Shown: piece by piece, positions 5,600 through 46,400 of the stretch
How the letters are laid out: every line of letters starts with the position of its first letter
Numbering within the stretch: position 1 is the first letter of the stretch
DNA from: a virus
Direction: 5' to 3' (one strand)
Virus record (IMG/VR): IMGVR_UViG_3300042321_002898
Span: 1 to 52,400 of that record
Length of the DNA: 52,400 nt
The notes under the pieces: model-generated
Databases searched by the model: none
Seen by the model: only the letters and a program-made list of their open reading frames with translations
Told to the model about the DNA's origin: nothing
Translations under genes and position numbers: made by a program

Positions 5600-5755
5600 C
5601 TATTGTTGATCAAAGTCTGGAAAAATGCGAATCTCAGTCATCTTGACAGATCTGATGTCTTCGCGTCCTCCAGTTGGAATGATCGGGGTTTTCAAAAAAT
5701 CATTGAGGACTATTCCGTTTTCATCCAGACATTCACTGTATTCATTATTATTCAT
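5600..5755 (-). CDS. Small acidic hypothetical protein (51 aa)
   Basis: The frame starts at 5755 and ends at a TAG at 5600-5602. Its ATG overlaps the TGA of the GH43 gene (ATGA), and it ends 5 bases before the S74 fibre start, so it fills the gap between two receptor-binding genes. It is acidic at the N-terminus (NNNEYSECLDENG) and ends EIRIFPDFDQQ. It is possibly a small connector or chaperone for its neighbours. No family is recognised. Confidence 0.65.
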   Translation of the reverse strand: MNNNEYSECLDENGIVLNDFLKTPIIPTGGREDIRSVKMTEIRIFPDFDQQ

Positions 5756-7155
5756 ACTTTTTTCCCCCACACGCAGGTGCCAGTTGCGCTCATGCCGGTG
5801 TAAACAATGGCGCTCGTCTCAAGCTCCCAGTCCCACGCGCTGAACACTTGGCACTCAAAAGTCACGCCTGAGAGAACCAGCGTCATGTTGTTTGTTCCCG
5901 ATAGGGACCATGTTCCCGCATTGGCGTTCCCAGGAATGCTGACATTTCCGCCATCCTCTAGGGCAACGGCTGACGAGGTTGCCTGCGTGTCTGAGGTTGT
6001 TGTGTGCTCAATGTGCGCATAGTTTCCGGCAACCTTCGCACTTATGATTTTTTGCGTAAATTCCCCGGCATATCGCTGCGGCATAAACATTGGCCATCCG
6101 TTGCTTGCCCATAGCACTCGGCGAACATGCAGATAGTTCCAATTAAAATCGTTGTCCAGCCGGGCATGGTGAACGGTAAAATAGTCTTTGCCCTTTTGGA
6201 AGATGGCATTATGGCCAGGAGCCACCCATCCAATTGAAGCTCCGAATTTATAGCCGCCCATGAGCTTGGTGCCTATGGCATTGGACGGACTTGAAACAGT
6301 GTCCGTCAATGATTGCCCATCCACATCAACATAGGGCCCGGTTATGGAGGCGGATCGTCCGACTCTTACATTGTAAAGTGGCTCCGGCGGTGTCAGGTCG
6401 TTAAAGCAACACTGCCCGAATGAAATAAAGAGATAATAGTAGTCAAAATCTGCATTATAGATGATATAAGCACCTTCCACCGCTTTGAATCCCGACGCGT
6501 CGCGCCGACAGATATTGGTTTTTGGGGCCCCGCTCAGAATCTTGCCCGTGCTGTCGTCAACGCGAATGACATAGATGCCATTTGCATAGGAGCCGTAAAC
6601 CATCCACCGATTGTTGTCTTTATCTTTGACAATGTTTGGATCAATGGCGTTTTCCGAGGCTCCAAAATTTGTCTTGTATACTTCTCCAAGATTTGTCCAG
6701 GGGCCATTGATTGAGTTGCTTGAAAGGACGCCAATGAACGAGTTCGTCGTGCCAAAGGTTGACGCAGAATAATACAAATAAAATGTGCTCCCGATTTTTT
6801 CGACATGCGGCGCCCACGCCCTCACAACCGAAGGTCCGCAATGCGCAGTGGCATCAGATGGAAGCGCGGAAAGGGCGTTTCCAACCCACTCCCACCTTAT
6901 TAAGTCAGGCGAGCGGCGAATCTGTATGGACAAAGGAATTGTTCCATAAACGGCTTGGTTTCCCGTCATAAAATCTGTCGAAAACGCATAATAGTAATTG
7001 TCGACAAAAATGATGAAGGGATCGCTCACATTATGAATGCGCCACTTTGAGAGGTCTGACGTGAATAGATCGTCGGGATCTCCAAGCGTATACGATGGCG
7101 CCCCGGATATTGTAAACCTTGACGAAGAAACTGCTGAAAGTGCTGGTAAAATCAT
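5752..7155 (-). CDS. GH43-like arabinanase, probable virion-associated depolymerase
   Basis: 467 aa. The five-bladed propeller signature of glycoside hydrolase family 43 is visible: NVSDPF (general base D45), ENAIDPNI (D172, pKa modulator) and AVEGAY (general acid E227), with AWAPHVE, YGSY and APGHNAIF as in endo-1,5-alpha-L-arabinanases. The spacing matches characterised arabinanases. A C-terminal beta domain (about 380-467) may trimerise or bind sugar. There is no signal peptide. The start shares one base with the stop of an Mtd-N protein (TGATG), so the two are coupled and may form one adhesion unit. The gene is visibly AT-richer than the replication genes, suggesting separate acquisition. 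It probably degrades arabinose-containing polymers on or around the host; the exact substrate is inferred. Confidence 0.87.
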   Translation of the reverse strand: MILPALSAVSSSRFTISGAPSYTLGDPDDLFTSDLSKWRIHNVSDPFIIFVDNYYYAFSTDFMTGNQAVYGTIPLSIQIRRSPDLIRWEWVGNALSALPSDATAHCGPSVVRAWAPHVEKIGSTFYLYYSASTFGTTNSFIGVLSSNSINGPWTNLGEVYKTNFGASENAIDPNIVKDKDNNRWMVYGSYANGIYVIRVDDSTGKILSGAPKTNICRRDASGFKAVEGAYIIYNADFDYYYLFISFGQCCFNDLTPPEPLYNVRVGRSASITGPYVDVDGQSLTDTVSSPSNAIGTKLMGGYKFGASIGWVAPGHNAIFQKGKDYFTVHHARLDNDFNWNYLHVRRVLWASNGWPMFMPQRYAGEFTQKIISAKVAGNYAHIEHTTTSDTQATSSAVALEDGGNVSIPGNANAGTWSLSGTNNMTLVLSGVTFECQVFSAWDWELETSAIVYTGMSATGTCVWGKKV

Positions 7156-8046: not shown

Positions 8047-9255
8047 TTAGAGTCCCGTTGAACTGGTCAGGCAGGTCTCGAGGCCGGTGTCGAAGGTGCA
8101 GCGCTTGTAGGCGAAGGGCACCACGGCATGCGGCCGGATCGGCTGGTATGCCCGGCTGATCTGGTAGATGTGCTGCCCGTAGTCGAGGAACAGGTTGCAG
8201 TCGTTGTCACGCTGCGCGACCCATTCGAGCTCGCCCATGTGGAGCTGAGGCGCGAACTTGAACGATCCCTCGCCGGTGTAGCGCTCGGGCGTGAGCCGCG
8301 AGAAGCTGTCGCCGGCAACGAGGAAGCCAATCTCATACTGCGCCGAGACCCACGCGGGGTTGCGACGAGAACCCTTGCCGTTGGTGACGGACACGCCAAT
8401 CTCAGGCTCGATCAGGATGGGCTGACCAGAACCGTTGAGGGCGTTGAAGCGGAGAGGCTGACTGTCGACGCCGAGGGCGAATCCGCGATACCCCTGGAAC
8501 GAGTAACCCGTGAGGGCCTCATTGCCGAGGCGGAACGAACCGGCTGTGACGTAGAGCAGGTCTTCTTTGACGTCTGCATCGTTGCGGAAGGCTTCGATCT
8601 GGTCGATCGAGGCGATCACCATGAAGAAGTCACCGCGCTCGGTGCCGAAGGGCTCCGCGAGGAGATCCTCACGCAGGAGAGTTCCGAGCTTGTAGAGCGT
8701 GCGGAAGTTCATCTGCGCGTCGGGCAGCGAGTTGTAGAACGGAGTGTCGATCTGCTGGGAATCGCCGGTGACAAGATTGTCAAAGGAGACGCCCTTCTTG
8801 GCGACGAACTTGACACCGGAGCGACGCAGGAGCGTGGCACGGATGTCGGAGTTCATGATCTGCAGGATTCCTTTTTCCAGGGCCATCTGGGCCTGGAGAT
8901 AGGCGCCCTTGAACGCGGTGCGGCTGGTCTTCACGCAGACGCGAGGACCGCGGCCACGAAGGGACTGCAGCTGATATTGGTATTCGGTCGAGCCGACTTC
9001 ATCCGGGTCGGCGCCGACACCGCAGAGTTCGACGTCGTTGGTGAACGAGGGCTCTGAGAGCGATGCGTTCATCACGGCGCGTTCCTGCACGACTGAGCGG
9101 ACGACATCCGAGACGTTCGGAATGGTTCCGCCCTTGAGGACGTTCATATACGGACTCTTGCGAGCCAGGACCTTTGCGATCTGGCCGACAATACGGTTGA
9201 CGTCCTTGGCCGCGAAATTCTGTACGGCCGACAGATCAATACAATCATTAGGCAT
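8047..9255 (-). CDS. Major capsid protein (probable)
   Basis: 402 aa from the ATG at 9255 (MPNDCIDLSAVQNF); an upstream TTG at 9297 in the same frame is less likely. It has a helical N-terminus, then mixed alpha/beta, with FMVIASIDQIEAFRNDAD and GYSFQGYRGFALGVDSQPLRFN in the style of HK97-fold coat proteins. The call rests on size, high-quality coding, and position downstream of portal and scaffold in the late block. Unusually, five sugar-related genes lie between scaffold and this gene. A 163-base gap upstream suggests its own promoter or processing site. No strong Shine-Dalgarno is seen. Confidence 0.78.
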   Translation of the reverse strand: MPNDCIDLSAVQNFAAKDVNRIVGQIAKVLARKSPYMNVLKGGTIPNVSDVVRSVVQERAVMNASLSEPSFTNDVELCGVGADPDEVGSTEYQYQLQSLRGRGPRVCVKTSRTAFKGAYLQAQMALEKGILQIMNSDIRATLLRRSGVKFVAKKGVSFDNLVTGDSQQIDTPFYNSLPDAQMNFRTLYKLGTLLREDLLAEPFGTERGDFFMVIASIDQIEAFRNDADVKEDLLYVTAGSFRLGNEALTGYSFQGYRGFALGVDSQPLRFNALNGSGQPILIEPEIGVSVTNGKGSRRNPAWVSAQYEIGFLVAGDSFSRLTPERYTGEGSFKFAPQLHMGELEWVAQRDNDCNLFLDYGQHIYQISRAYQPIRPHAVVPFAYKRCTFDTGLETCLTSSTGL

Positions 9256-9418
9256 ATTGCTTGTGCTTTCTAACTGAGGTTTAGGTTTGAATGGCAACGT
9301 GTCTTCAGACGCGTCGTCGTTCTCTCTGTCCTCGGCACGTTAGGACTGTGTGCGGCCTGTTTGCAGCGGCTGGACCGCGGCTCCCCGATCGCTTTCGGCG
9401 ATCAATCGCAAGAGCAAG
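9256..9418. other. Gap upstream of the capsid gene
   Basis: This is the longest gap in the left minus-strand block. It holds a small hairpin (GATCGC at 9388-9393 against GCGATC at 9398-9403) and no T-run. A weak minus-strand promoter could be drawn, but nothing convincing is visible. The plus-strand frames crossing it look like noise. Confidence 0.4.
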
Positions 9419-10171
9419 CTATCCCTGCTGAGAGAGAATGGAAAAGCTTTTTTTCTGCGAAGAAACCAGGCGTCGCCTCGCCCAGTCGCGCGCGGTTGAG
9501 TCCTTCACGCCATGGAGCCAGACGCAGCCGTCTCTCAGCAGATGCTCGAAGACAAACGGCTCGACGTTTCTTGCCCTATAGAGATTTCTGATCTCTGGGA
9601 TGTCCTCCCACCCGAGCTGATGAAAGACGTTGGCAAGATACGTGTCCCAGCAGACTCCTGTCGCGCACCCGGCGAGGCGCGGATCAAGCGTGACCGTGAG
9701 GGGATCAAACAGGGCATTTCCATTGATGTGCCCGACCTCGTGCTCGCCGCTCGGATGCCAACATCCGGCCACCATGGACTCGGCCCGGTCCCATGCGGCA
9801 AGCAGTCTCTGCGGCCAGTCGCGGACGAGCGGGATCGCGTCTGCCTCGGTCGTCAGGACGCAGTCATACTTCCACTCCTTCGACCGGTGCATCGCGGCCA
9901 CGTGCTGCATCGTGTCGCACCACACGCCGTTGGGACCCGCAGGAAATCCGGTCTCATGGCGCCTTGAGCGGTAGGATCTCACGACTGAAAAAGATCCGCC
10001 CAGCAGTTCCTCGAGCTCTCTGGGTCTCGGACAGTCGCGGCGGTAGACGAGCATGGCGTCGACGTCCTGATACGGAGTCTTGTCGGTGATCTCGGCGTGG
10101 AGTCTTGCCACCTCGGTCGCCATGTCGACGTCGCCGTGCCAGACCTGAAGAACGTAAAGGAGGCGGCTCAT
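9419..10171 (-). CDS. Glycosyltransferase-like protein 1 (paralogue of 11801-12553)
   Basis: 250 aa. The N-terminal text (VWHGDVDMATEVARLHAEI) and the C-terminal VWLHGVKDSTARDWA match the protein at 11801-12553 (YWQGDWEMAREVARL; LYHGVKDDSAIRAV). The core has CVLTTEADAIPL, where a DxD-like nucleotide-sugar site would lie, then HINGNALFD and WDTYLANVF, which resemble GT-A acceptor-side motifs. It probably transfers a sugar to a phage or host target. It is the last gene of an ATGA-coupled series starting at the scaffold gene, and overlaps the fucose-synthase gene by 4 bases. The C-terminus is basic and Ser-rich. Family membership is inferred from fold-like motifs, not a close match. Confidence 0.68.
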   Translation of the reverse strand: MSRLLYVLQVWHGDVDMATEVARLHAEITDKTPYQDVDAMLVYRRDCPRPRELEELLGGSFSVVRSYRSRRHETGFPAGPNGVWCDTMQHVAAMHRSKEWKYDCVLTTEADAIPLVRDWPQRLLAAWDRAESMVAGCWHPSGEHEVGHINGNALFDPLTVTLDPRLAGCATGVCWDTYLANVFHQLGWEDIPEIRNLYRARNVEPFVFEHLLRDGCVWLHGVKDSTARDWARRRLVSSQKKSFSILSQQG

Positions 10172-11079
10172 AGACCACGGGGAGGGACGGAATGAAAGTC
10201 ATTCCAGGCAAGAGACAGGCCCTCATGCAGCGAGACTCTCGGGCTCCAGCCGAGGCTCTTGAGTTTTGACACATCAAACGTCTTGCGAGGAATTCCCACG
10301 GGCTGGCTGGTGTCCCACTTTACCTCCAGGTCAAGGCCAGACACCTCTGCCAGCGCCGACACCAGCTCACGGATGCTGTGGCTCAGCCCTGTCCCGATCG
10401 ATATGACCTCTGGCGATTCCCATCCCTGGATCACCGCGTCGATCGCGGAGGCCACGTCGTCAGAATAGATGAATTCACGCACCGCCGAGCCGTCGCCCCA
10501 CACGACGGGCGAACTCGACGTCGCCCGAGCCTCGCTGAACTTGCGGATCAGTGATGGAATGACATGCGCATTGACGCCATAGTTGTCGTTCGTGCCATAG
10601 ATGTTCGAGGGATTCACCGTGATGAAACGTCTGCCAAACTCTTCCCAGTATGCCTTGCACAGTCTCCAGCCGGCTATCTTTGCGATCGCGTAGGCCTCGA
10701 CGGAATCATCCAGTCGTCCGGTCAACAGGGACTCCTCGGGAACTGGCAGGGCGGCGTCTCGCGGAAACATGCACGATGTTCCGATGAAGATCAGGGTCTC
10801 CACGCCGTGGCGCGCGCACGACGAAATCACGTTGTTCTGCATCTGCAGATTGTCGAGCAAAAAAGTCACGGGATGGCGCTTGTTGGCATGCACTCCTCCC
10901 ACTCGGGCCGCACAATGAATGACCTCGTCGGGCCCATGCTGTTCAAAAAATTGCTGAACGTCTCTCTCAATCAGGCAGTCTCCCTGAAAGAGCACAATGT
11001 CGCGCGACTCAGAAAAGTGTCTCACGCACGCAGAACCGAGCAGTCCCCGGTGTCCAGTGATGGCCATCGTTTTTTTCAT
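10168..11079 (-). CDS. fcl: GDP-L-fucose synthase
   Basis: 303 aa, near the usual length of about 320. It is a short-chain dehydrogenase fold: GHRGLLGSA at residues 9-17 binds NADP(H). The text around GTSCMFP and EAYAIAKIAG matches bacterial GDP-L-fucose synthase, with catalytic Y130, K134, C103 and H172 (NAHVIP); the position of E. coli Ser107 is Thr101. The enzyme epimerises and reduces GDP-4-keto-6-deoxymannose to GDP-L-fucose. The preceding enzyme, GDP-mannose 4,6-dehydratase, is not seen here, so the host would have to supply the intermediate. It overlaps glycosyltransferase-like genes on both sides by 4 bases, so fucose or a related 6-deoxyhexose is the likely donor for them. Confidence 0.92.
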   Translation of the reverse strand: MKKTMAITGHRGLLGSACVRHFSESRDIVLFQGDCLIERDVQQFFEQHGPDEVIHCAARVGGVHANKRHPVTFLLDNLQMQNNVISSCARHGVETLIFIGTSCMFPRDAALPVPEESLLTGRLDDSVEAYAIAKIAGWRLCKAYWEEFGRRFITVNPSNIYGTNDNYGVNAHVIPSLIRKFSEARATSSSPVVWGDGSAVREFIYSDDVASAIDAVIQGWESPEVISIGTGLSHSIRELVSALAEVSGLDLEVKWDTSQPVGIPRKTFDVSKLKSLGWSPRVSLHEGLSLAWNDFHSVPPRGL

Positions 11080-11804
11080 GATCTGGTCAGGGTCGCGGCA
11101 TACAGCCGCATCAGCTCGTCCTTGACGCGGGCTGACTTCACGGAGTGCAGGCAGACTGCCCCATGATTGAGCACTCGGTCAGACAAGACCGCGAGCCCGA
11201 GTGGCGTCACCGTCTCGCAGCTCGCGCCATGAGTGAACGGGAGATGCTTCACGCCCGCCGCGGCACAGGCCACAACAAACCACCAGTCGATGAAAGGAGT
11301 GATCGGACAGGCCTGCAGTCCGAACGTGGCCTCGACAATCTTCTCAAGACAGCGGCGAGACATGAAATATGGCGGCTGCATGGCAATGAGAGGAAAACCC
11401 CTGTGGTAATCCATGCTCCACGTGGTTCCTTCGTATGTCTCTCCGGGAATCCGGAAATCTGCGACCTCGTTGCTGTAGACGACTCCCTGATCTGCAAAGA
11501 GATATTCAGGAAGCTGCGCGCTGCACACGAACGAGTCAGAATCATTCATGAGATACCAGTCAAAGTCGTATTCGAGAAGCAGTTTCAACTGCAGCCACTG
11601 GCGATCCCACGAGTCCTGACCGACATATGCCCGTTTTCCGGCAAACCTGCAGATGTGAGGCCCGACTCCAGAGATCGGAGAATCTTCAGGAGAGACGATG
11701 ACCAGCGGACACTGGTGATGCTCAAACACCGGAAGCAGATCAAAGACCTGAGCAGCATCGCCCGCGTAGCCATGCACGGACACCAGTGTCTTGCGGTTGT
11801 TCAT
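11076..11804 (-). CDS. Glycosyltransferase-like protein 2
   Basis: 242 aa. It begins KTLVSVHGYAGDAAQVFDLL. A GT-A type donor site is visible as YLMNDSDSFV (DSD in place of DxD), followed by PPYFMSRRCLEKIV and PFIDWWFV. The C-terminus (VCLHSVKSARVKDELMRL) shares the LHxVK feature with glycosyltransferase-like proteins 1 and 3, which suggests distant paralogy among the three. It overlaps both neighbours by 4 bases and lies between the fucose synthase and protein 3. Donor and acceptor cannot be read from the sequence. Confidence 0.72.
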   Translation of the reverse strand: MNNRKTLVSVHGYAGDAAQVFDLLPVFEHHQCPLVIVSPEDSPISGVGPHICRFAGKRAYVGQDSWDRQWLQLKLLLEYDFDWYLMNDSDSFVCSAQLPEYLFADQGVVYSNEVADFRIPGETYEGTTWSMDYHRGFPLIAMQPPYFMSRRCLEKIVEATFGLQACPITPFIDWWFVVACAAAGVKHLPFTHGASCETVTPLGLAVLSDRVLNHGAVCLHSVKSARVKDELMRLYAATLTRS

Positions 11805-12553
11805 ATCCCGAATCTTTCTCTCACGGCCCTTATGGCCGAGTCATCCTTGACTCCATGATAGAGCACTGGAACTTTTTTTTCCTTTCTGGGAGAAAATAAT
11901 TCTTCAGGAGTTATGCTCTTTCTGCGGTAGTCCAGGTGGATGAGAGGGGTGTCGCGCGCCACGGGATGCAGCCGCACGCCGTGATACCAGTCCCATCCGA
12001 CAGTTCCGGGAGATCCAACCAATGCCGGAACATGCTTAAGGATGTCCCAGCGGTATATCGCGGCCGCGTTGATGTGAAACTTGCCGCCGTTGAAACTTCC
12101 TGGAATGAAACTTCCGCACACGAGTTTTCCCGCGGTCTGGGCGCGGCGCCACTCGTCGATGAATTCATGATTCCAGGTGCGGCTCAGCATGACGCAGTCG
12201 GCCTCGATCAACAGCACACCATCGATGTGCAAAAAATCGTGCCGGTTGCAGAACATGAAATCAAACAGATCGAACGCGAGCTCGTTGCATCCCATGGGAA
12301 AACCCACTCCCTTGCGGCGCGAACGGCGCACATGGACTCTTGCAAATTTTTCTTCGCAGTGGTGCACGATGCCCGTGTCGGGCTTCTCACAGTCGAACCG
12401 TCTCTGAAAAAGAAGCTCGACGTTTGACTGCCGCGACGGAAGCAGGTCGCTCAGCAGCCTGGCCACCTCGCGCGCCATCTCCCAGTCGCCCTGCCAGTAT
12501 GCCAGACAGACCAACAGCGAACTCTTGTCGGAGTCTGACTCTGTCTCGGTCAT
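11801..12553 (-). CDS. Glycosyltransferase-like protein 3 (paralogue of 9419-10171)
   Basis: 250 aa, the same length as protein 1 and sharing both ends with it: YWQGDWEMAREVARL near residue 20 and LYHGVKDDSAIRAVRERF at the end. The core contains DGVLLIEADCVML (EAD at the likely nucleotide-sugar site), GKFHINAAAIYRWD and GWDWYHGVRL. It is one of a series of ATGA-overlapping genes between scaffold and capsid. It is probably a sugar transferase that arose by duplication, with the pair now separated by protein 2 and the fucose synthase. Confidence 0.7.
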   Translation of the reverse strand: MTETESDSDKSSLLVCLAYWQGDWEMAREVARLLSDLLPSRQSNVELLFQRRFDCEKPDTGIVHHCEEKFARVHVRRSRRKGVGFPMGCNELAFDLFDFMFCNRHDFLHIDGVLLIEADCVMLSRTWNHEFIDEWRRAQTAGKLVCGSFIPGSFNGGKFHINAAAIYRWDILKHVPALVGSPGTVGWDWYHGVRLHPVARDTPLIHLDYRRKSITPEELFSPRKEKKVPVLYHGVKDDSAIRAVRERFGI

Positions 12554-13377
12554 AGAACCTCGTCAAGGGCTGAAGTGTGCATGCCATAGACCCCATGACC
12601 GACATGGAGTGCGTGAAGCATCGTGTCGACATGCGGCTGGAATCCGCATTCTTTTGCCCTGGCACAGAAGGCGATGTCCTCTCCTCGGCCATCATTCTCT
12701 GGCTGGAAAAAGTTGAATGGCATCTCGGGATTGGTCGGATTGAGCTCTGGAAACTTGGTCTGCATCGTCTCGAGCACCCGGCGGTGGATGAGCAGACAGC
12801 CGGTCCCGATCCAGTCGCAGGGCATGGTCCCGTCGTGGAACGAGGCCGCCCTCGCCCGGTAGGTCTGGTCGAGCGCCAGACTGTTGACCGCGCGTCCCCT
12901 GGGATGCCTGGTGAAGTAGGTGGCTCCGACGATGTCAGCACCATGGCCGATGAGCCGGTGCGCGACGTGCAGCGCCGTGGGAGCCGTGGGATACGAATCT
13001 GGCAGTCGGCACATCGCACGAAGGAAATCTGGGCGTCCGATCGGAGGAATCATGTCATCGTCGAGAAACAGGATCCACTGGGCCTGGGTCGCAAGAAACT
13101 TCATTGCCAGCTCGTTGCGGGCATGGTAGATCATCGCGTCGCCGACCTGCATGTCAAACCGGACCTTCTCCTTGCCGAGATCGAGCGCGATCGCGAGAAG
13201 ACACCAGGCCGTGGCCGGGTTGGTCTGCTTGTAGCAGGGAAAGCCGACAAACAGGTCACGCCCCAGCCACTCGGCCTCCTGCTTCCAGCCCAGCGGAGCC
13301 TGGGTCTGAATGACAGTCGTGGGCCCGAGATCGAGATCGTCGGGGTCGATCCCGTCGATTCGTCCGGTGTGGCTCAT
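12550..13377 (-). CDS. GT-A glycosyltransferase (family 2-like)
   Basis: 275 aa. The best glycosyltransferase candidate of the cassette: VGFPCYKQTNP at the start of the domain, AQWILFLDDDMIPP with a DDD metal and nucleotide-sugar site, CDWIGTGCLLIHRRVLE on the acceptor side, and GEDIAFCARAKECGF matching the ED general-base region of GT2-like enzymes. The C-terminus has HALHVGHGVYGM. It directly follows the scaffold gene with a 4-base overlap. It is unlike the three other transferase-like proteins, so the cassette holds at least two families. Confidence 0.82.
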   Translation of the reverse strand: MSHTGRIDGIDPDDLDLGPTTVIQTQAPLGWKQEAEWLGRDLFVGFPCYKQTNPATAWCLLAIALDLGKEKVRFDMQVGDAMIYHARNELAMKFLATQAQWILFLDDDMIPPIGRPDFLRAMCRLPDSYPTAPTALHVAHRLIGHGADIVGATYFTRHPRGRAVNSLALDQTYRARAASFHDGTMPCDWIGTGCLLIHRRVLETMQTKFPELNPTNPEMPFNFFQPENDGRGEDIAFCARAKECGFQPHVDTMLHALHVGHGVYGMHTSALDEVL

Positions 13378-14666
13378 GACATGGCAGACTCGGCGGCCAT
13401 GAGGCCGACCTCGATGGCATCCTCGTCAGAGAGCTTGTTGGGATCGGCCGACTCGGTGGCGGGCTTGCGTCCGCCCTGACGGGCAGATGGCGCCTTGCCG
13501 GCGTTCTTCACGGCCTCGAGCGCCTTTTCTGCCTTCTCGGCGCGCTCGTTGGCGGTCTGAAGACGCGCACCCAGATCGGTGACGGACTCGGCAAGCTTGA
13601 CGCTCGCGACGGCGGCGGCCGCGACCTCGGCGCGCGCCTGCGGGGTCTGCGGATACAGGGCCTCGCGGAAGCGCGTCTCGAGTTCCTCGACAGTCTTGTT
13701 GTGCTCAGTGATTCTCTTTGCCTCGTCTGGCTTGGCGCCAGGAGGAACTTCCTGATACCGCGCCCACGGGACCTTCTCGGTCATCTGGTCGACGTGCGTG
13801 AATATCTCCTGTTCGAACTGCTGCAACTGAGCCTGCTGCTGTTGCTCGCGGTATTGGGCATAGGAATCCCGGTAAGACTTGAATTCTTCAAGCGCCTTGA
13901 ATCGACTCTCTGAGACATCTGCGCGTTCGGCCAGCCGCTTGCGGATGCGCTCCTTGTCGACAAATGAGAGCTTGTCAAGAACAGACTCCTCCCACCACTT
14001 GGGAGACACCTTGTCAATGCCAATTTGCCTGAGCTGTTTTTCTGTGTCCTCAGGAAGGCCGTTTTTGCGCAGTATGGAAAAAACGTCTTCTTCGATGCCC
14101 TGAAGCTTGGCATCAAACATTTCCCTGAATTCCGGATCGTTTTCAGTGTCATAAAGAGCCCTGAAGGCACGAAGTTCTGTGAGTTCGTTGATCACCTCGT
14201 CGGGAACCCGCACCGGACTTTTTTGGACCTCGGCGAGCTGCTGCTCCATCTCCGCGGCGCGGGATGCCTGGGCCTTGAAATGACGGGCGACGTCACGCAG
14301 TTTGTCAAAATTGACGAGATTGCGGGGACTGATGTCCGCGGGCGGCTGGATCGCGTCGAGATCGATCTGCTCGAATTCTCTGGCGACGTCCTCCGGAGAC
14401 GGCTCTGGGGCCTTTTCTTCGGCTGGCTTCTCGCCGTCTGGCTGACTGTCGGGCGGCTGCTCGTCGGCAGGCGGCTGATCTGCCGGCTTCTCATCGGACA
14501 GAGGAGCCGCTGAGGTCTCGGGCATCTCTTCTCCCGGATCAAGAATTCCGGCAGCTCGCATCGCCTCGTCGAGACTGTTCATGTTGTCCTGTGTGGGTGG
14601 TTCGACATGCCCGAGGTCAAGTTCCTGGGGCACGCCCTCGCTGGTCACTGGTTTTTCTGCTGACAT
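13374..14666 (-). CDS. Scaffolding protein (probable)
   Basis: 430 aa. The N-terminal third is acidic and Pro/Glu-rich (EEKAPEPSPEDVAREFEQ), the middle and C-terminal parts are long charged helices with coiled-coil character (residues about 120-380, including a Gln-rich EQQQQAQLQQFEQE), and the end has a basic patch (RQGGRKPATES) of the kind that binds coat protein. Composition, length and position between portal and capsid genes indicate the internal scaffold of procapsid assembly. It overlaps the GT2-like gene by 4 bases. Confidence 0.78.
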   Translation of the reverse strand: MSAEKPVTSEGVPQELDLGHVEPPTQDNMNSLDEAMRAAGILDPGEEMPETSAAPLSDEKPADQPPADEQPPDSQPDGEKPAEEKAPEPSPEDVAREFEQIDLDAIQPPADISPRNLVNFDKLRDVARHFKAQASRAAEMEQQLAEVQKSPVRVPDEVINELTELRAFRALYDTENDPEFREMFDAKLQGIEEDVFSILRKNGLPEDTEKQLRQIGIDKVSPKWWEESVLDKLSFVDKERIRKRLAERADVSESRFKALEEFKSYRDSYAQYREQQQQAQLQQFEQEIFTHVDQMTEKVPWARYQEVPPGAKPDEAKRITEHNKTVEELETRFREALYPQTPQARAEVAAAAVASVKLAESVTDLGARLQTANERAEKAEKALEAVKNAGKAPSARQGGRKPATESADPNKLSDEDAIEVGLMAAESAMS

Positions 14667-32910: not shown

Positions 32911-33593
32911 AGCGCCACCCGATCATTGTCCTCGAGGGACCCGATGCCGTCGGTAAGACGACGTGGGGACGCGAATACATGCGTCAGACCGGGGCCCGCT
33001 ACCTGCACCTGCCGCTGCGCAAGAGAATGTATGAGCACCAGGCGATGTCCCTTGCCCTGGCAGTCCACTGGTCAATCGAGAAGCCCGTCCTGATCGACAG
33101 ACACTGGCCTTCGGAGCAGCTGTATGCGGCCGCCTACCGTGGCGGATCTCCGCTCGTTGCCGAGGCGGCCGTGCTCGACCAGATCATGTCGTGCCTCGGG
33201 GTCACTTACGTCGTCTGCCTGCTCTCGAGCCCCGAACGGATGTTCGAGTCGCTGCGCCGTTCTCGAAAAGAGCGTCATGAGATGTATGAGCCAGACGACC
33301 GCTACCGCGACCTGGTCTGCGGCTATTTCGACTGGTGGCACGGAACCGACCACACCGCGACCAATCTCGGCCACTGCGAGACACTACGTGGATTCGGCAA
33401 CGCCCGTCCCCTGATGGCGCACCTCTATGACTACGAACAGATGGGACAGACGTCTCATGACATGTCCATGCACGTCCAGGACGTTCAGGACATCGCTTCT
33501 GCCATGCTCGAGGCCACCGACTTCAACGTGCAGGCCGAGGACCTGGTCCGCGACCGCATGCTTCTTCTCAACGAACTGAATCTCATCAAATGA
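32907..33593 (+). CDS. Deoxynucleoside monophosphate kinase (thymidylate-kinase-like)
   Basis: 228 aa. A P-loop LEGPDAVGKTTW (G11 to T19) opens the protein, followed by LIDRHWPSEQLYAAAYRGG, which corresponds to the DRY/F region of thymidylate kinases, and a lid-like basic stretch RRSRKERHEMYEPDDRYRDL. It likely phosphorylates a deoxynucleoside monophosphate. In T4 the kinase also accepts hydroxymethyl-dCMP; here the neighbouring dCMP-type enzyme suggests a modified nucleotide as substrate. That is inference. The C-terminal 60 residues may be a separate helical extension. Confidence 0.83.
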   Translation: MKRHPIIVLEGPDAVGKTTWGREYMRQTGARYLHLPLRKRMYEHQAMSLALAVHWSIEKPVLIDRHWPSEQLYAAAYRGGSPLVAEAAVLDQIMSCLGVTYVVCLLSSPERMFESLRRSRKERHEMYEPDDRYRDLVCGYFDWWHGTDHTATNLGHCETLRGFGNARPLMAHLYDYEQMGQTSHDMSMHVQDVQDIASAMLEATDFNVQAEDLVRDRMLLLNELNLIK

Positions 33594-34447
33594 ACAACGA
33601 CAAGATCCCAAAGACCGCCACCGAGGCGTGGCTTCAGCTCATCGCAGACGTGTCTCTCAACGGCCGTCGATACAGTCCACGCGGCATGCCGGTCCGCGAG
33701 ATCATCAACAACACGGTGGCAGTCGACATGGCCTTTCCGGTCGTTTTGACAAAGAAGCGCCGGCTGAGCTACCGCTTCATGGCGGCCGAGGCCTGGTGGA
33801 TTCTTGCCGGCCGCCGCGACGTCGAATCGATCGGACGATACTGCTCGGCGATCAAGAAGTTTTCCGACGACGGGGAGACATTCTTTGGGGCCTACGGACC
33901 CAAGATCGCGCGGCAGGTCGAATACATCGTGAACACGCTCAAGAGAGACCGCGACACGCGCCAGGCAGTTCTCACGATATGGAGAGAGAATCCGCCGCAC
34001 ACGAAGGACGTGCCCTGCACGGTGGCAGTCCAGTGGCTGATCCGCGACGGACTGCTCCACTGCGTCGACACGATGCGTTCAAGTGACGTCTGGCTCGGGT
34101 TTCCGTATGATGTCTTCAACTTCTCGATGCTGTCGTGGCACATTCTCGAGGCGCTGCGCGACGAGGGCATGGACCTCCAGCTCGGCACCCTGCATCTCAA
34201 CGCCGGATCTCATCACATCTATGAGAAGGATCTCGAGACCCTTTCCGGTTGGCACAACCACGACTGGTCAGAGGGACATGACTTTGATGCCGTCGCCGGC
34301 CACCGGATCGAGCATGGCTTTGTTTACGGCTACCTCGCCGCGATTATCGGTGAGTATTCTGTCACCCCAAATCTCAACGAGCCTCATGGATTTTTCAAGT
34401 CTTTTGAGGATCGTCTCCTGAACACAAACAACCAACCCACAAAATAA
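33590..34447 (+). CDS. Thymidylate-synthase family enzyme with dCMP-type active site (dCMP hydroxymethylase or methylase)
   Basis: 285 aa. The family signature is clear: DVPCTVAVQWLIRDG with catalytic C143, MRSSDVWLGFPYD, and SHHIY with H209 and Y211. In thymidylate synthases the motif is GLPFN, with the Asn (E. coli Asn177) selecting dUMP. Here the text is GFPYD with Asp174. In T4 dCMP hydroxymethylase the same position is Asp, and the Asn-to-Asp change in L. casei enzyme favours dCMP. The protein therefore probably makes a 5-modified dCMP. The neighbouring kinase and Nudix enzyme fit a pool-remodelling pathway. Ordinary dTMP synthesis remains the alternative. Confidence 0.82.
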   Translation: MNNDKIPKTATEAWLQLIADVSLNGRRYSPRGMPVREIINNTVAVDMAFPVVLTKKRRLSYRFMAAEAWWILAGRRDVESIGRYCSAIKKFSDDGETFFGAYGPKIARQVEYIVNTLKRDRDTRQAVLTIWRENPPHTKDVPCTVAVQWLIRDGLLHCVDTMRSSDVWLGFPYDVFNFSMLSWHILEALRDEGMDLQLGTLHLNAGSHHIYEKDLETLSGWHNHDWSEGHDFDAVAGHRIEHGFVYGYLAAIIGEYSVTPNLNEPHGFFKSFEDRLLNTNNQPTK

Positions 34448-40276: not shown

Positions 40277-40405
40277 ATGGACCCCGACATCCTCATCATC
40301 CTGCGAGGCCTCATCCAGATCGCCTGGAACTTCTGGCCAGCCCTGGTCTTCATCGTCCTGGGGCTGGTCGTGGTCCTGGCCTGGGAACGGGCAGACCGAG
40401 ACTAG
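40277..40405 (+). CDS. Small membrane protein at the convergence point (42 aa)
   Basis: MDPDILIILRGLIQIAWNFWPALVFIVLGLVVVLAWERADRD: one or two membrane helices and an acidic end, with coding-like third positions. It starts two bases after the previous stop. Its TAG (40403-40405) lies within CTAG, and the same palindrome provides the stop of the giant gene on the other strand. Confidence 0.6.
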   Translation: MDPDILIILRGLIQIAWNFWPALVFIVLGLVVVLAWERADRD

Positions 40406-43400
40406 CCGCCGCGGATCACATCGCGCATCGTCTCGCGGATGGTCTGCTTCCACTCGTCCTCGGTCGAGAAGTCCTTCCTGGTGATGCCCATGCGATCTCG
40501 CAGATAGGCGATGGTCTTGCGCTTGTCCTCGGAATAGAGACTGAAGTCAAAGTTGCCGTCGTCATCGGTGTAGCGAGGGTTGTAGCCGGGCATGAATCTG
40601 GCCCCAGACAGAGGACCCTGGTCAGTGTCTGGTCCCGTGACTCCGGCAAGACTCTGGTCATCCTGGGATGATCCGGGCATGAATCGAGCGTTTGGTCGGG
40701 CACTCGAGGGTGCCACAAAGACTTCGCCTTCTCCAAAAGCTCCCTCCATGTGCTTTCCGGGCATGTGGGGTTGCTCGGATCGATTGATCCCGAGTTCCTC
40801 GGCAATGTCGTCGATGGCCCCGTCCTCGATCACAGGAAACTTGCCCACCGGACTGATCCTGAGCACCTCGGGTTCAAGACCTCGGCGACTCTCGGCGTTG
40901 GCATAGGCGACCATGTCGGCCATGTCGTAAAACTGCGTGAATGACTTTGCCTGTCGAGTCAACTGAGATCTTTTTTCATCTAGTCCGACTCCTCGATAGA
41001 GTTCGTCCATGCCGCGTTCTTGCAGATTTTCTTGAGACATTGCCAGGAGTCTCTTGAAATACGGGTTGTCTTTCAGCGTCACAAAGACAGACGACAGGGC
41101 CTTGCGGCTATCGACTCCCTTGGAGTGCATGGCAAGTCTCTGCAGACCCGCGATCATCGCGGCCGCGTCGGCATCAGGTTCTTTTGAGGTGACGACATCG
41201 CCGACACGCCACCGGTTCTTGCCAATCTTGACGGGTCTTGGAATCTTGAACGGACGGACTCCCTCGATGTCGATCAGACGGCTGGTATCCGCCGGCATGA
41301 ACTTGGCCCCCGGTCCCGTGCCGCCCGTGCCCTCCTCAGAGTCGGGATTGTTTTCTAGAAACTCACTGATCTTGTCGTAGAACGCATCGAGCATGTCCGA
41401 GGGCTCGCGATACTCGCCCGGGTCGAGCATGAAATAGCCGACTGAGTCCTCCATGCCGGGCTCGACGTAGATGTTGACCCTGGTTCCTCCAAGACCAGAG
41501 GCGATCGGCTCAAACGTGTATTTGCCGAGCGACGTCGTCTCGTCGTTCATCAGGGCCTCGGCGGCCTCGTTGATCATGGCCGTCGTGATCGGCTTGGTCT
41601 TGGTCCCAGGTGCCGTCGGGGCAGACGTGGCTCCAAGAGTCGACAGGGCCTCGTAGATGGCCGCCTCGAGATCCATGGGTTCCATGTTCTGCGATCCCTG
41701 GATCGGGATGATGCCGAACACGTTGCCGTCCTTGTCGTAGCCGGTGATCGCGACAGACCCGACCTCGGTGACGCCCTTTGCAAACTTCTTGCCGCCGACC
41801 TCGACGACCTCGATGTCCGGGTCCATGAGCTGGGCGGCCGCCTGCATCGTGAAGTCTTCCTGTTCTGTTAAGAGCGGCTTTTCATTCTTTGCCGTCGGCT
41901 TGTTCAGAAACTTTGCGGCCTCTCGGATGACGTATGCAAACGGTCCGATCGCGAAATTCTTGTCGTCCTTGATGAACTGATACATTCCGTCCTCCGCGAC
42001 CTGCTTGACAATCTTGACCTCGTCTCCCTGGCCGTTCGTGAGAACCACGGACTTCCATTTGCCATCCTTGGTGGCCTGCGCGTCGTCAAGAGTCACTCCC
42101 AGATTGTCGACAAATTTCATCAGTGCGTCGGAGTCGGCAAGAATCACGGGATCCGCCTCATTCTCCGAGGGTTTCAGATACGGGTGGCTGGGATTCGCGG
42201 CATCGAAGATCGCCAGGGCCGTCTCAGAGACAGACGGAAGGACTCCGTTGTCGGCCCAGTATTGCATGATGGCCGTCTTGTTGCCGGGCGCCCACTCGGT
42301 CACAAACGGATCGCCCTGCTCGTCCTCGTATGGATTTGTCACGGCCGTGCCCGAGTTTGTCGTGAAATACACGTGGTTGGTCCCGCCGATCTCGCCCTCT
42401 TCAAACGGTCCGACCATGGCGGCCGCCTCGGCGACGGTCATGAGGGTGTCGTCTGCCTTGGCATATCCGACTGCCGGAGAATCCAGGGTCAGCCCCTCTT
42501 CCTCGACTTCTTCGACCATGTCGGCCGCCTTGCGCTTCTCAAGCTTGTCGGATGCCCACTTGCCGACGTCGTAGAGATACTTGCCGAGGGCCTCGACGTC
42601 GTTGGGGCTAAGTGCGTCAATGATCTTTGCCTTGGCGAGGCCCTCAGAATTTCCGAGAAGAAGCGACTCCACGAACTCAGCCGAGGCGTCGATGTCGGAC
42701 GGCGGAAGATTCACGAGGTTGGTGTCAACCCACTCCTGATCCTGCAGATTCTCAAGCAGTTGATTGACTCTGTTTCTCGCGGCCCACGGAAGATTCTCAA
42801 GAAGATTGCTGATTCCCTCACTCTGCGCGGGCATCTGCGGCTTCATCTCGGTCTTCAGATTCTGCTGCATCCAGTCCATGACGTTGCCGTAGCCGGCCTG
42901 TTTGGCGCGCATCATCGCGTAGTCGGACAGCCAGTCAACGGCGTCGCGCTTCTTGCCGCCAGGAATCTGGGCCGTGGTGAGAAGATTGCCCTCAGACACT
43001 GAGTCTCCGGCATAGACCTTGAGAGTCGCGACCTTGCCAGATCCACCGGCATTGAGAACCGTGACATCGCCGAGCTTCAGGCCGTTGAATCCGGCGGTCA
43101 TGAGAGTCTCAACAAACTTGTTGAGGTTCGTCGGAGTCGAAACATTGGTCTTTGGCTTGAATGTGCTGCCCATGAACCAGTTCTGGTCTGCAATGGGCTT
43201 TGGCTTCGGAAGCTTGATCTCGACATTCGGGACATTAGACAAAGACGGCTTCTTGCCGGTCACCCGCGGATCCTTGCCCTCGTTCAGGAGCATGCGAAAG
43301 AGTTTCGTGGCGTCTGTCTGCGCGATTCCGATGTCTCCAAAGTGGTCCTGCAGGATCAGACCGATGTGGGCATTCTGGTCCTTCTTGATGGCCTTCCAGG

Positions 43401-46400
43401 CGTCACTGCCCCGTCCCAGATTTCGGTGGATTCCCTCGGCCGCGTTGGCAATGTTCTCATACGGGTTCTCTCGACGGACGCCGCTTGATGACTTGCGATA
43501 ATAACTGCCAACGAGATCCTTGAGCACCTCAATGAACTGATCGGGATCAAGGGCCACGTCCTTGAAGTTCTCTGGCAGCTGTGCCTTGACGCTCTCTTCA
43601 AGATCCTGGGTGAGAGGCGCGTCGGCTCGCATGTCGGCAAACCAGGCGTCGGCCAGTTTTCCCATGGTGCCACTGACGAGCCCGCGCAGTTCACGGGGAT
43701 TTCCCACGTTGGCCTTGAAGTCGAGCATCTTGGCGATCCAGCCGTATCCCTCGGCTCCCATGTAGTATTTCTTGAGCTTGTTGAAGACCGTGTTGGTGTT
43801 GTGCTGCAGGTCGTAGGCACGGTCGATCTCCTGGAACATGGCGCTGTAGGCACCCGGGTCGCGAAACTCGTTGGTCTCAATGACCTGCATGCGGCCGGTC
43901 TCTGGATCGGTCGCGACGGCGCGGACTCGCTCGGTGGAATATGTCGGATCTGACATCTGGGCGAGATGGGCCGCGATGTCGCCCCATGGGTTTCCGCCGT
44001 AGCTCGACGACCAGTCGCCGCGACGATACAGCTGCTCGGCAAAGCGCGCCACGTCGGCGATGCCCATGCCCAGTTTCTTGCGGGCATTCTCCATCGCGAC
44101 AAAAGAAGCCTTATAGCCCTCGCTCTCTCCCTTGTAGCGGCGTGGCCCCTTTTCTTTCTTGAGATCTGGCATGCCCGCTCCCTGGATCGCATACTGGCGC
44201 ATGTATTCCTGATAGAATTCAGACTCGGCCAGGTCGGTCGGCTGTCTGCGCGGAATGGCATGGCGAAGTTCGGCCGCGATCGCAAAATGCAGTGCCTTCT
44301 GGATCTTGCTGTGGAGAGACGGGATGAGCGTCTGCTTGGCCTCATCGAGGGCGTCCTGGTATTTCTCGGCGCGGACTCCGGCATAGCGCCCGGTCGGGTC
44401 TGCCGAGGGAGCATACATGGTGGCCTCGCCACCGAACTTGCCCATGCTCCATCCAGTCGGCGGCGTCGTGATCATGGCGTTGAGCATGTAGAAGTCGGCC
44501 ATGGTCTTCTTGGGATCGTCGGGAAGCGACGTGTAGCGGATGCCGGGAAGGAACCGAGGCATGGCGCCGCCGACAATGTCGTTTTCCACCTCGAGGTCCT
44601 GCGACTGGTCGAGACGGAGCGCGCCATCGGGTCTCTCTGGGAAGAAATTGATTTTCATCCTGCCGTAGTCGATCGGCATCTTGGCGGCGTTGCTGATCTG
44701 CATCTGGTTGATGCGGTCCATGCGCGCCGACATGATGATCCGGTCGGCAGACTCTTTTCCGCGCTGGGCCGGGAGCTTGGTTCTTGACGGATTGGAGGCC
44801 TCGGTCTCCTTTGAGAACATGTTGAAGAAGTCGTTGATGCGGTTCTTCTTTTGCATTGCGATGTCGGGGTCGATGTCGAGGTTGGTCTGCCCGGCGAGTC
44901 CGCGATTGTGATTGTCGAGCACCTTCATGACGTCGGCCCAGAACTTAGAGGTGCTGCGTCCCCAAAGATTGAGGTTCTCGGGCTTCTTCTGGGCCCACAG
45001 GTTCATTTTGTCAAACATGCGGCTGACCGATGCCGTGACGGCGAGCCAGTTGCCCTGCTTGGTGAATCGAAACCCAATCGGCACAACGTCGCGAATCTTT
45101 GGGGCGAGGGCCCGATATCTTCCCTTCTTGAGGGAGGGCTGGTATTCCATAAGGATGCGAGTCCCGTCACGACGCTGCAAGACCTCGCTGAACGCAATCA
45201 GATTTTTCTTGACATACGGGGTGACCAGCGTGTTGGGCAGCGCCATGATGGCCTCGACCTGGGACGGACTGAGCGTCCCGGTATAGTTGCCATTCTCGTC
45301 GCCCCTCATCCGGCCCTCGAAGCCGTCCTCTGGCGCGTTGTCGATCGCGTCCTTGATCATCTGGTCGCGCTGGCGAGCCCGCGCCTGGATCTCTTTGTTC
45401 TGGAGAATCTTGGGACTGCCGTCGGGGTTGCGGGCGATGCGGTTGTCAATGGACGCGCTCGATCCCTCCGGAAATGCCGAGAGATCAATGGCCGGGTCGA
45501 TCGGCGGGAGCACGTTGCCATTCTCGTCGACAAGCTGCCCGTTGACGAGGCGGTATTCCCCGATCGCGGCCGAGTTGGCCACGGGGCTGTCCGGTATCAC
45601 GATCTGTGACAGCGCGTTTCCGTCCTTGTCGCGAATGTCGAGCACCGTTTCCTTGTCCCAGATGACGTCATCCTTGTAGACCTCCTGCAGGGCCCGGTTG
45701 GTCATGAGCTCGGTGAGGCTGATCTCGATGTCATCCTGCAGCGAGTCGCCCACAAACGTCATCGTGTCGGTATATTCAAGAAGCTGCCGCTTGTATTGAC
45801 GCATCATTGCAAGAACTTCAGGAATCGCGACGTTGCTTCCAAAGATTACTGAGCGGACATCGCCCTGCGAGTCAAGCTCGACTCCGACGGCCTCCAGGGC
45901 CTGGCGAAGTCGCCCGAGCATCGAGTTCTGGTTCGCGACCAGCAGCCGGTCGACGACGGCCTGTCCGGGCGAATCCAGGCCCTCGCGCATCGTCTGGTAG
46001 CCACCCTCCGAGATCGCCGCAATTTCTGACATGATTTCTTCACGAATGTATTCGCGCATCTTGTCAGTGTCTGGAAATCCTCTCTTGAATCCTTCCACTC
46101 CACCGACTGTCCGACTGCCATACAGCGGCACAAACACGGAATCGAGCACTTCATCGGTGATCACTCCAGGTGTCACGGGCATCTTGCGGACAGTCCCGTC
46201 GGGCATGAACTGATCGGCATATCTTCCAAATAAAAACTGCCGTGCCGGCTGCTGCATGTCCTGAACTTCTTTGAACTTCGACAGCGCGTGGTTCATCTCG
46301 TGCGACAGGGCATGCCTCAGTCCCGCGGGATTGTTCATGACATAGCCCGCGTTGATCATGACCGTCGGAGACGTGACGTTGGCCGGCCTAAGGTGCGGCG

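Follow-up and report, generated by a model that had tools for sequence, protein, structure and literature searches.

The stretch of DNA analysed here, a 52.4-kb virus record (the window), carries a cassette of sugar-transfer genes within its head region, and the cassette genes and head genes are all on the minus strand. In the order of transcription, this region comprises the terminase, a predicted portal, two small genes, a predicted scaffold, GT1, GT2, GT3, a GDP-L-fucose synthase homologue, GT4, a leader, a predicted capsid gene, and genes of the fibre region (Table 1). The five cassette genes span positions 13377–9419, from the predicted scaffold to shortly before the predicted capsid, and all five begin with an ATGA overlap, the scaffold/GT1 junction among them (5/5). 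A preliminary description of this DNA reported four glycosyltransferase-like genes and a GDP-L-fucose synthase in one ATGA-coupled run from the scaffold gene; both the arrangement and its coordinates were confirmed, with GT3 as the weaker call. That description also placed the cassette immediately before the capsid gene. GT4 is indeed the last gene ahead of the capsid, but a 163-nt leader separates the two. Because the capsid ORF probably starts at the ATG at 9255, the cassette is coupled by overlap to the scaffold gene and not to the capsid gene. The leader is near-identical in seven relatives, whereas the silent sites of the flanking genes diverge. It has no match in Rfam, and a sigma-70 promoter scan gave one site only, which is below chance.

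Table 1 Positions and basis of assignment of the features discussed in the text.
Feature	Position	Strand	Basis
Terminase	upstream of portal	-	phrog_2 match
Predicted portal, 762 aa	15114..17402	-	Positional inference: size and location after the terminase; conservation across all subclades
Predicted scaffold, 430 aa; opens the ATGA-coupled run	13374..14666	-	Positional inference: between portal and capsid; relatives at 25-87% identity
GT1, core GT-A glycosyltransferase, 275 aa	12550..13377	-	Motifs, AF2 model, Foldseek, synteny, dN/dS
GT2, GT-A-like glycosyltransferase, paralogue of GT4, within the swapped block	11801..12553	-	31% identity to GT4, common motifs
GT3, probable GT-A-like transferase, candidate 6-deoxyhexosyl (fucosyl) transferase	11076..11804	-	Invariant motifs, weak profile match, company of fucose synthase
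GDP-L-fucose synthase homologue (GDP-4-keto-6-deoxymannose epimerase/reductase)	10168..11079	-	PF01370, PDB alignments
GT4, GT-A glycosyltransferase, 250 aa	9419..10171	-	AF2 model, Foldseek; retained in near relatives while the block ahead is swapped
Exchangeable block GT2-GT3-fucose synthase, 2378 nt	10172..12549	-	Replaced in six near relatives
Conserved leader ahead of the capsid gene, 163 nt	9256..9418	-	Near-identical in 7 relatives; can form a stable hairpin
Predicted major capsid protein, 402 aa	8047..9255	-	Positional inference; ranks among the clade's best conserved proteins
Thymidylate-synthase-family protein with cytidylate hydroxymethylase Asp	33590..34447	+	PDB match to CMP 5-hydroxymethylase

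The capsid, scaffold, and portal were assigned from position and conservation. Pfam, PHROGs, and NCBIfam searches of these three proteins returned nothing useful, and comparisons of the capsid and portal profiles with those of P22 and N4 (hhalign, HMMER) detected no homology. Despite this, the head region resembles that of N4 in gene order and sizes. The expectation that scaffold and capsid genes are normally adjacent holds for P22 and N4, whereas in the lineage of the window they are never adjacent (104/104).

Glycosyltransferases and the GDP-fucose pathway

Pfam makes none of the glycosyltransferase calls, and GT2, GT3, and GT4 gave nothing useful in Pfam, PHROGs, or NCBIfam; GT1 has weak PHROGs matches to glycosyltransferases. 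An alignment of GT1 over 38 relatives revealed a conserved D-x-D, an ED motif, and a C-terminal His, which form a GT-A signature. The AF2 model of GT1 has a pLDDT of 83 (above 90 in the core) and is confident past residue 40. Its Foldseek neighbours, at TM scores of approximately 0.5, are the collagen transferases LH3 and COLGALT1, Mnn9, and GalNAc-T2, and protein-acceptor transferases are present among them; these model-based matches are taken to indicate the GT-A fold, not the substrate. The GT1 proteins of one large subclade share a conserved motif at the N-terminus and a low-complexity linker.

The AF2 model of GT4 (pLDDT 91) led in Foldseek to CHSY3 (chondroitin synthase), glycogenin, and GfsA, consistent with GT-A. 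GT2 is 31% identical to GT4 and has the E-x-D and H-G-x-K motifs in common with it, and by this homology it appears to be GT-A-like. GT3 has D-x-D-S and H-x-x-K motifs that are invariant across 12 homologues and a weak colinear match to the GT2/GT4 profile (P 0.013), with no match in Pfam or the PDB. It is probably also a GT-A-like transferase, a weaker call than GT1, GT2, and GT4.

The fucose synthase matches PF01370 in Pfam (7e-53) and GDP-L-fucose synthases in the PDB (1e-65 to 1.3e-71), the best alignment covering residues 3–292. The active-site Cys, Tyr-x-x-x-Lys, and His are aligned, and the catalytic Ser is replaced by Thr. Its match to NCBIfam GDPFucSynFcl (2e-90, 303 bits) lies under the 500-bit equivalog cut-off. 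The predicted protein can thus be regarded as a firm family member with the expected active site, and as a homologue, not a certified equivalog. No GDP-mannose dehydratase was seen in the cassette of the window, and the intermediate would therefore have to come from the host. The third subclade includes cassettes that combine GDP-mannose dehydratase, fucose synthase, and GT3; ten of its 19 fucose-synthase cassettes encode a GDP-mannose 4,6-dehydratase (PF16363, 9e-133; PDB, 3e-130), so that both reactions leading from GDP-mannose to GDP-fucose are encoded in those phages.

Among 125 distinct intervals, 21 contain both GT3 and fucose synthase, nine contain GT3 alone, and 95 contain neither (Fisher 4e-17, with the intervals counted as they stand, shared descent included). 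Fucose synthase thus implies GT3 (21/21 intervals), which makes GT3 a candidate GDP-6-deoxyhexose transferase. A two-way co-occurrence had been suggested by the first set and fails on the third subclade, where the nine GT3 genes without fucose synthase are found.

Conservation of GT1 and exchange of the neighbouring block

A search of IMG/VR with the capsid protein gave 164 relatives, 80 of which were kept, and a third subclade was recruited separately by a search with a capsid protein from that subclade, approximately 46% identical to that of the window. Scaffold and capsid flank a GT1 homologue in 64/64 retained relatives with both genes detected and in 40/40 loci of the third subclade, these being counts of metagenomic records, partly fragments, and not of independent evolutionary events. 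The shortest state seen is GT1 alone between scaffold and capsid (L113). Pairwise distances of GT1 track those of the portal (rho 0.88) and capsid (0.84), with a portal–capsid value of 0.90, whereas the distances of fucose synthase and GT3 track portal and capsid poorly (0.39–0.54). The dN/dS of GT1 is 0.04–0.07. These sequence comparisons mark GT1 as a core gene, inherited vertically and under strong constraint. The preliminary description spoke of an inserted cassette, a view that does not fit GT1, as exchange is confined to the stretch that separates GT1 from the capsid. It had also proposed comparing synteny in relatives with and without the cassette; the comparison yielded no GT1-free locus among these 104 and revealed replacement of GT2, GT3, and fucose synthase in six.

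In these six near relatives, the DNA is 89–95% identical to that of the window as far as 12550 and again from 10171, with no match between. The replacement block is shorter than the 2378 nt of the window, and it is bounded exactly by the stop codon of GT1 and the start codon of GT4. GT2 is absent from L001 and L004–L008, and GT4 is 92–94% identical in near relatives. The GC3 of the exchangeable block in the window is 0.67–0.69, compared with 0.75 in GT1 and GT4. The genes following GT1 vary among relatives and include GT-like families, FkbM and other methyltransferases, heptosyltransferase-like and GT34-like proteins, and an FGE-sulfatase-domain protein; single relatives have a 2OG-Fe oxygenase (upstream of GT1) and a weak sulfotransferase match. 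Judged from their sequences, nearly all of the swapped genes appear to build or modify sugars. INPHARED, searched by DNA and by capsid protein, gave no match. In genome contigs, only one capsid relative was found, in a Ca. Peribacteraceae MAG, a link too weak for host assignment.

Proposed function and alternatives

We propose that the locus builds a glycan on one or more of the phage's own virion proteins, most likely the capsid, with GT1 adding the first sugar and the swappable genes finishing it. We regard this as the probable explanation. GT1 would be translated along with the scaffold protein and use a nucleotide sugar as donor to place the first sugar on an acceptor that does not change across the clade, presumably a virion protein made simultaneously with GT1. 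The cassette genes that follow, up to the capsid gene, would then extend and decorate the glycan: the fucose synthase would convert host-made GDP-4-keto-6-deoxymannose to GDP-L-fucose, and GT2, GT4, and the candidate GT3 would add the remaining sugars, all in the late assembly phase. Recombination with breakpoints at gene boundaries would swap the decorating genes blockwise and leave GT1 and the capsid unchanged. A constrained transferase fixed among head-assembly genes, beside freely exchanged sugar genes, suggests a fixed acceptor and a variable glycan, and near-identical phages should consequently differ in their surface sugars. The acceptor, the linkage, the order of the sugars, and the advantage of such a system (changed recognition or adsorption) are what we infer from the observed gene content, synteny, coupling, exchange, constraint, and homology. 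The Ser/Thr-rich C-terminus of the capsid (TSSTGL) was considered as the acceptor because mycobacteriophage glycans sit at capsid C-termini, and it was rejected since relatives without TSSTGL still have GT1.

A fuller version of this proposal is that a universal, capsid-initiating GT1 is combined with block-exchanged cassettes, full GDP-fucose synthesis included, to give switchable glycan serotypes on a constant capsid throughout a wide lineage of uncultured tailed phages, which would be the counterpart among bacterial viruses of the glycan coat of chloroviruses, and that in one large subclade the N-terminal motif and linker of GT1 may tether it to the growing procapsid. This remains tentative, at somewhat below an even chance.

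The alternative that survives best is glycosylation of the phage DNA by the transferases, with hydroxymethylated cytosines as acceptors and protection against restriction and CRISPR as the benefit, on the model of the T-even phages, which likewise encode their own transferases. Viral glycosyltransferases that place diverse glycans on DNA have been reported (Pyle et al. 2024, as cited in PMC12619734). The thymidylate-synthase-family gene of the window has CMP 5-hydroxymethylase as its best PDB match (4e-23) with the diagnostic Asp aligned, and its product is cytidylate-hydroxymethylase-like, possibly serving hydroxymethylcytosine synthesis. It adjoins thymidylate-kinase-like and NUDIX genes, with a dCMP-deaminase-like gene further up. 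The gene is present in 5/5 inner-subclade records but in 0/34 other records of 57–75 kb, and C5-methylase (4/39) and Tet/JBP (2/39) genes are sporadic, whereas GT1 was found in 19/19 genomes examined; most GT1-bearing relatives thus lack the DNA-pathway genes. Moreover, the glycosyltransferase genes sit among the late head genes, away from the nucleotide genes, and GT1 and GT4 were modelled as GT-A, whereas the T4 DNA glucosyltransferases are GT-B. DNA modification, which the preliminary description had offered as an alternative, is therefore a real rival in the subclade of the window, where DNA glycosylation by some cassette genes is possible, but it cannot explain GT1 across the clade, for which it is unlikely as a general role. 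As an account of the locus we consider it unlikely.

Instead of the capsid, the sugars could be attached to a protein of the tail or fibres, or to more than one virion protein. Both capsid and tail tube are glycosylated in mycobacteriophages, according to PMC12363180 and PMC12619734, and GT2, GT4, and the decorating genes could act on proteins other than the capsid. The fibre genes, however, vary separately downstream of the swapped block, and the conserved slot of GT1 is between scaffold and capsid, not in the fibre region; we give this possibility a low probability. The earlier suggestion that capsid or fibres are glycosylated with fucose-type sugars is thus retained in part: a virion protein, be it of the capsid, tail, or fibre, is the best-supported target, given the GT1 slot in three subclades, the sugar genes, and the GDP-fucose pathway in relatives.

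Phage glycosyltransferases often alter the host surface, and GDP-fucose is a common precursor of O-antigens and capsules. The cassette might change host surface polysaccharide for superinfection exclusion or serotype conversion, and PMC12619734 notes a host-serotype role of phage glycosyltransferases. Against this second alternative of the preliminary description, the cassette proteins of the window contain no membrane segment (maximum 19-residue hydropathy 1.46), such as a gtr-type flippase or membrane-bound transferase would have, no flippase-type partner is among the annotated cassette genes, no integrase is among the matches seen in the window, and the cassette is coupled to the scaffold gene. 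We consider it very unlikely. A last possibility is that the locus is a recombination hotspot whose genes are carried along without adaptive value, as the highly variable contents and the endonuclease VII/HNH-like genes in two relatives might suggest; this is scarcely credible, since GT1 is universal and under strong purifying selection and the contents are mostly sugar-related, not random.

Virion glycosylation by phage and virus glycosyltransferases is already known. PMC11256854, PMC12363180, and PMC12619734 describe glycosylation of the virion by the phages' own glycosyltransferases in mycobacteriophages Che8, Corndog, and Myrna (Freeman et al. 2023). These are tailed phages with their own transferases, as is the phage of the window; their capsid and tail tube glycans have demonstrated acceptors, whereas the acceptor in the window is predicted. 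The closest cultured GT1 homologues (approximately 25% identity, E ~3e-4) belong to Omega-type mycobacteriophages (Minerva, Baka), in which the capsid gene is immediately followed by this glycosyltransferase gene and then by kinase, methyltransferase, and further glycosyltransferase genes. Their cassette follows the capsid gene, whereas that of the window is between scaffold and capsid, and no GDP-fucose genes were seen in the Omega-type stretch examined around the capsid and glycosyltransferase genes. By analogy only, the nearest design is that of the chloroviruses, which are giant viruses of eukaryotes. PBCV-1 encodes GDP-mannose dehydratase and fucose synthase and has sugars on its major capsid protein, and two glycosyltransferases occur in all chloroviruses, which have a conserved core glycan and virus-specific decoration (PMC5408694). 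The mycobacteriophage systems, too, are cited as parallels in mode of action and not as groups to which the locus demonstrably belongs. In the open-licence articles consulted, we found no description of a universal GT1 in the scaffold–capsid slot with exchanged nucleotide-sugar genes. Compared with the mycobacteriophage and chlorovirus systems, the core-plus-cassette design appears to be new.

If the proposal is correct, particle assembly across a broad lineage of uncultured phages would always include a sugar coating, whose chemistry would change by cassette exchange with the capsid unchanged. Variation of the outer surface of a phage without change in the capsid protein, and its effects on adsorption, persistence, and recognition, would become testable. 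The locus would also provide new candidate families of protein glycosyltransferases, some with a predictable donor sugar.

GT1 and its neighbours in the cassette region

In the large second subclade (L022–L079), GT1, the core GT-A glycosyltransferase encoded between the predicted scaffold and capsid genes, begins with the conserved motif SPxExxTxxALDSxDPFxxP, which is followed by a low-complexity linker of approximately 40–100 residues. Apart from one chance-like match, the motif was absent elsewhere in the same loci. This N-terminal extension is possibly a tether to the scaffold or procapsid. The oxygenase of one relative (L011) and GT1 could conceivably form a hydroxylate-then-glycosylate pair because the top structural matches of the GT1 model are collagen hydroxylysine transferases. 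The endonuclease-like genes found in two relatives are possible agents of exchange of the cassette, the sugar genes between GT1 and the capsid gene. The start of the FGE-sulfatase-domain protein of many relatives resembles a signal peptide.

Features of the window and its relatives
Feature	Position	Strand	Remark
GH43 arabinanase-like protein	window 5752–7155	-	PF04616, 7e-45; among fibre genes
Leader 5' of predicted capsid gene	window 9256–9418	-	near-unchanged among relatives
Thymidylate-synthase-family protein	window 33590–34447	+	Asn-to-Asp switch
2773-aa ORF	window 40402–48723	-	phrog_20946 is sole family match
GT1 N-terminus (example)	L054:6410–6530		
Endonuclease VII/HNH-like gene	L150:7555–8019		inside cassette region
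Endonuclease VII/HNH-like gene	L128:6820–7413		inside cassette region
2OG-Fe(II) oxygenase	L011:7055–7630		between scaffold and GT1
FGE-sulfatase-domain protein	L035, L047, L053–L056, L063, L065, L071, L139, L147		immediately 5' of predicted capsid gene

Head genes and the capsid leader

The leader, which contains the hairpin GATCGC-CGAAA-GCGATC, is nearly invariant in relatives, though silent sites of the flanking genes have diverged. Head-gene order and sizes are similar to those of N4; no N4 homology of the window's capsid or portal was detected.

Fibre region and possible DNA modification

An Mtd_N domain is present in a fibre protein neighbouring the GH43 protein. The latter is a possible virion-borne depolymerase. 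Thymidylate-kinase-like and NUDIX genes are located close to the thymidylate-synthase-family gene, and the DNA of the window's subclade may contain hydroxymethylated cytosines.
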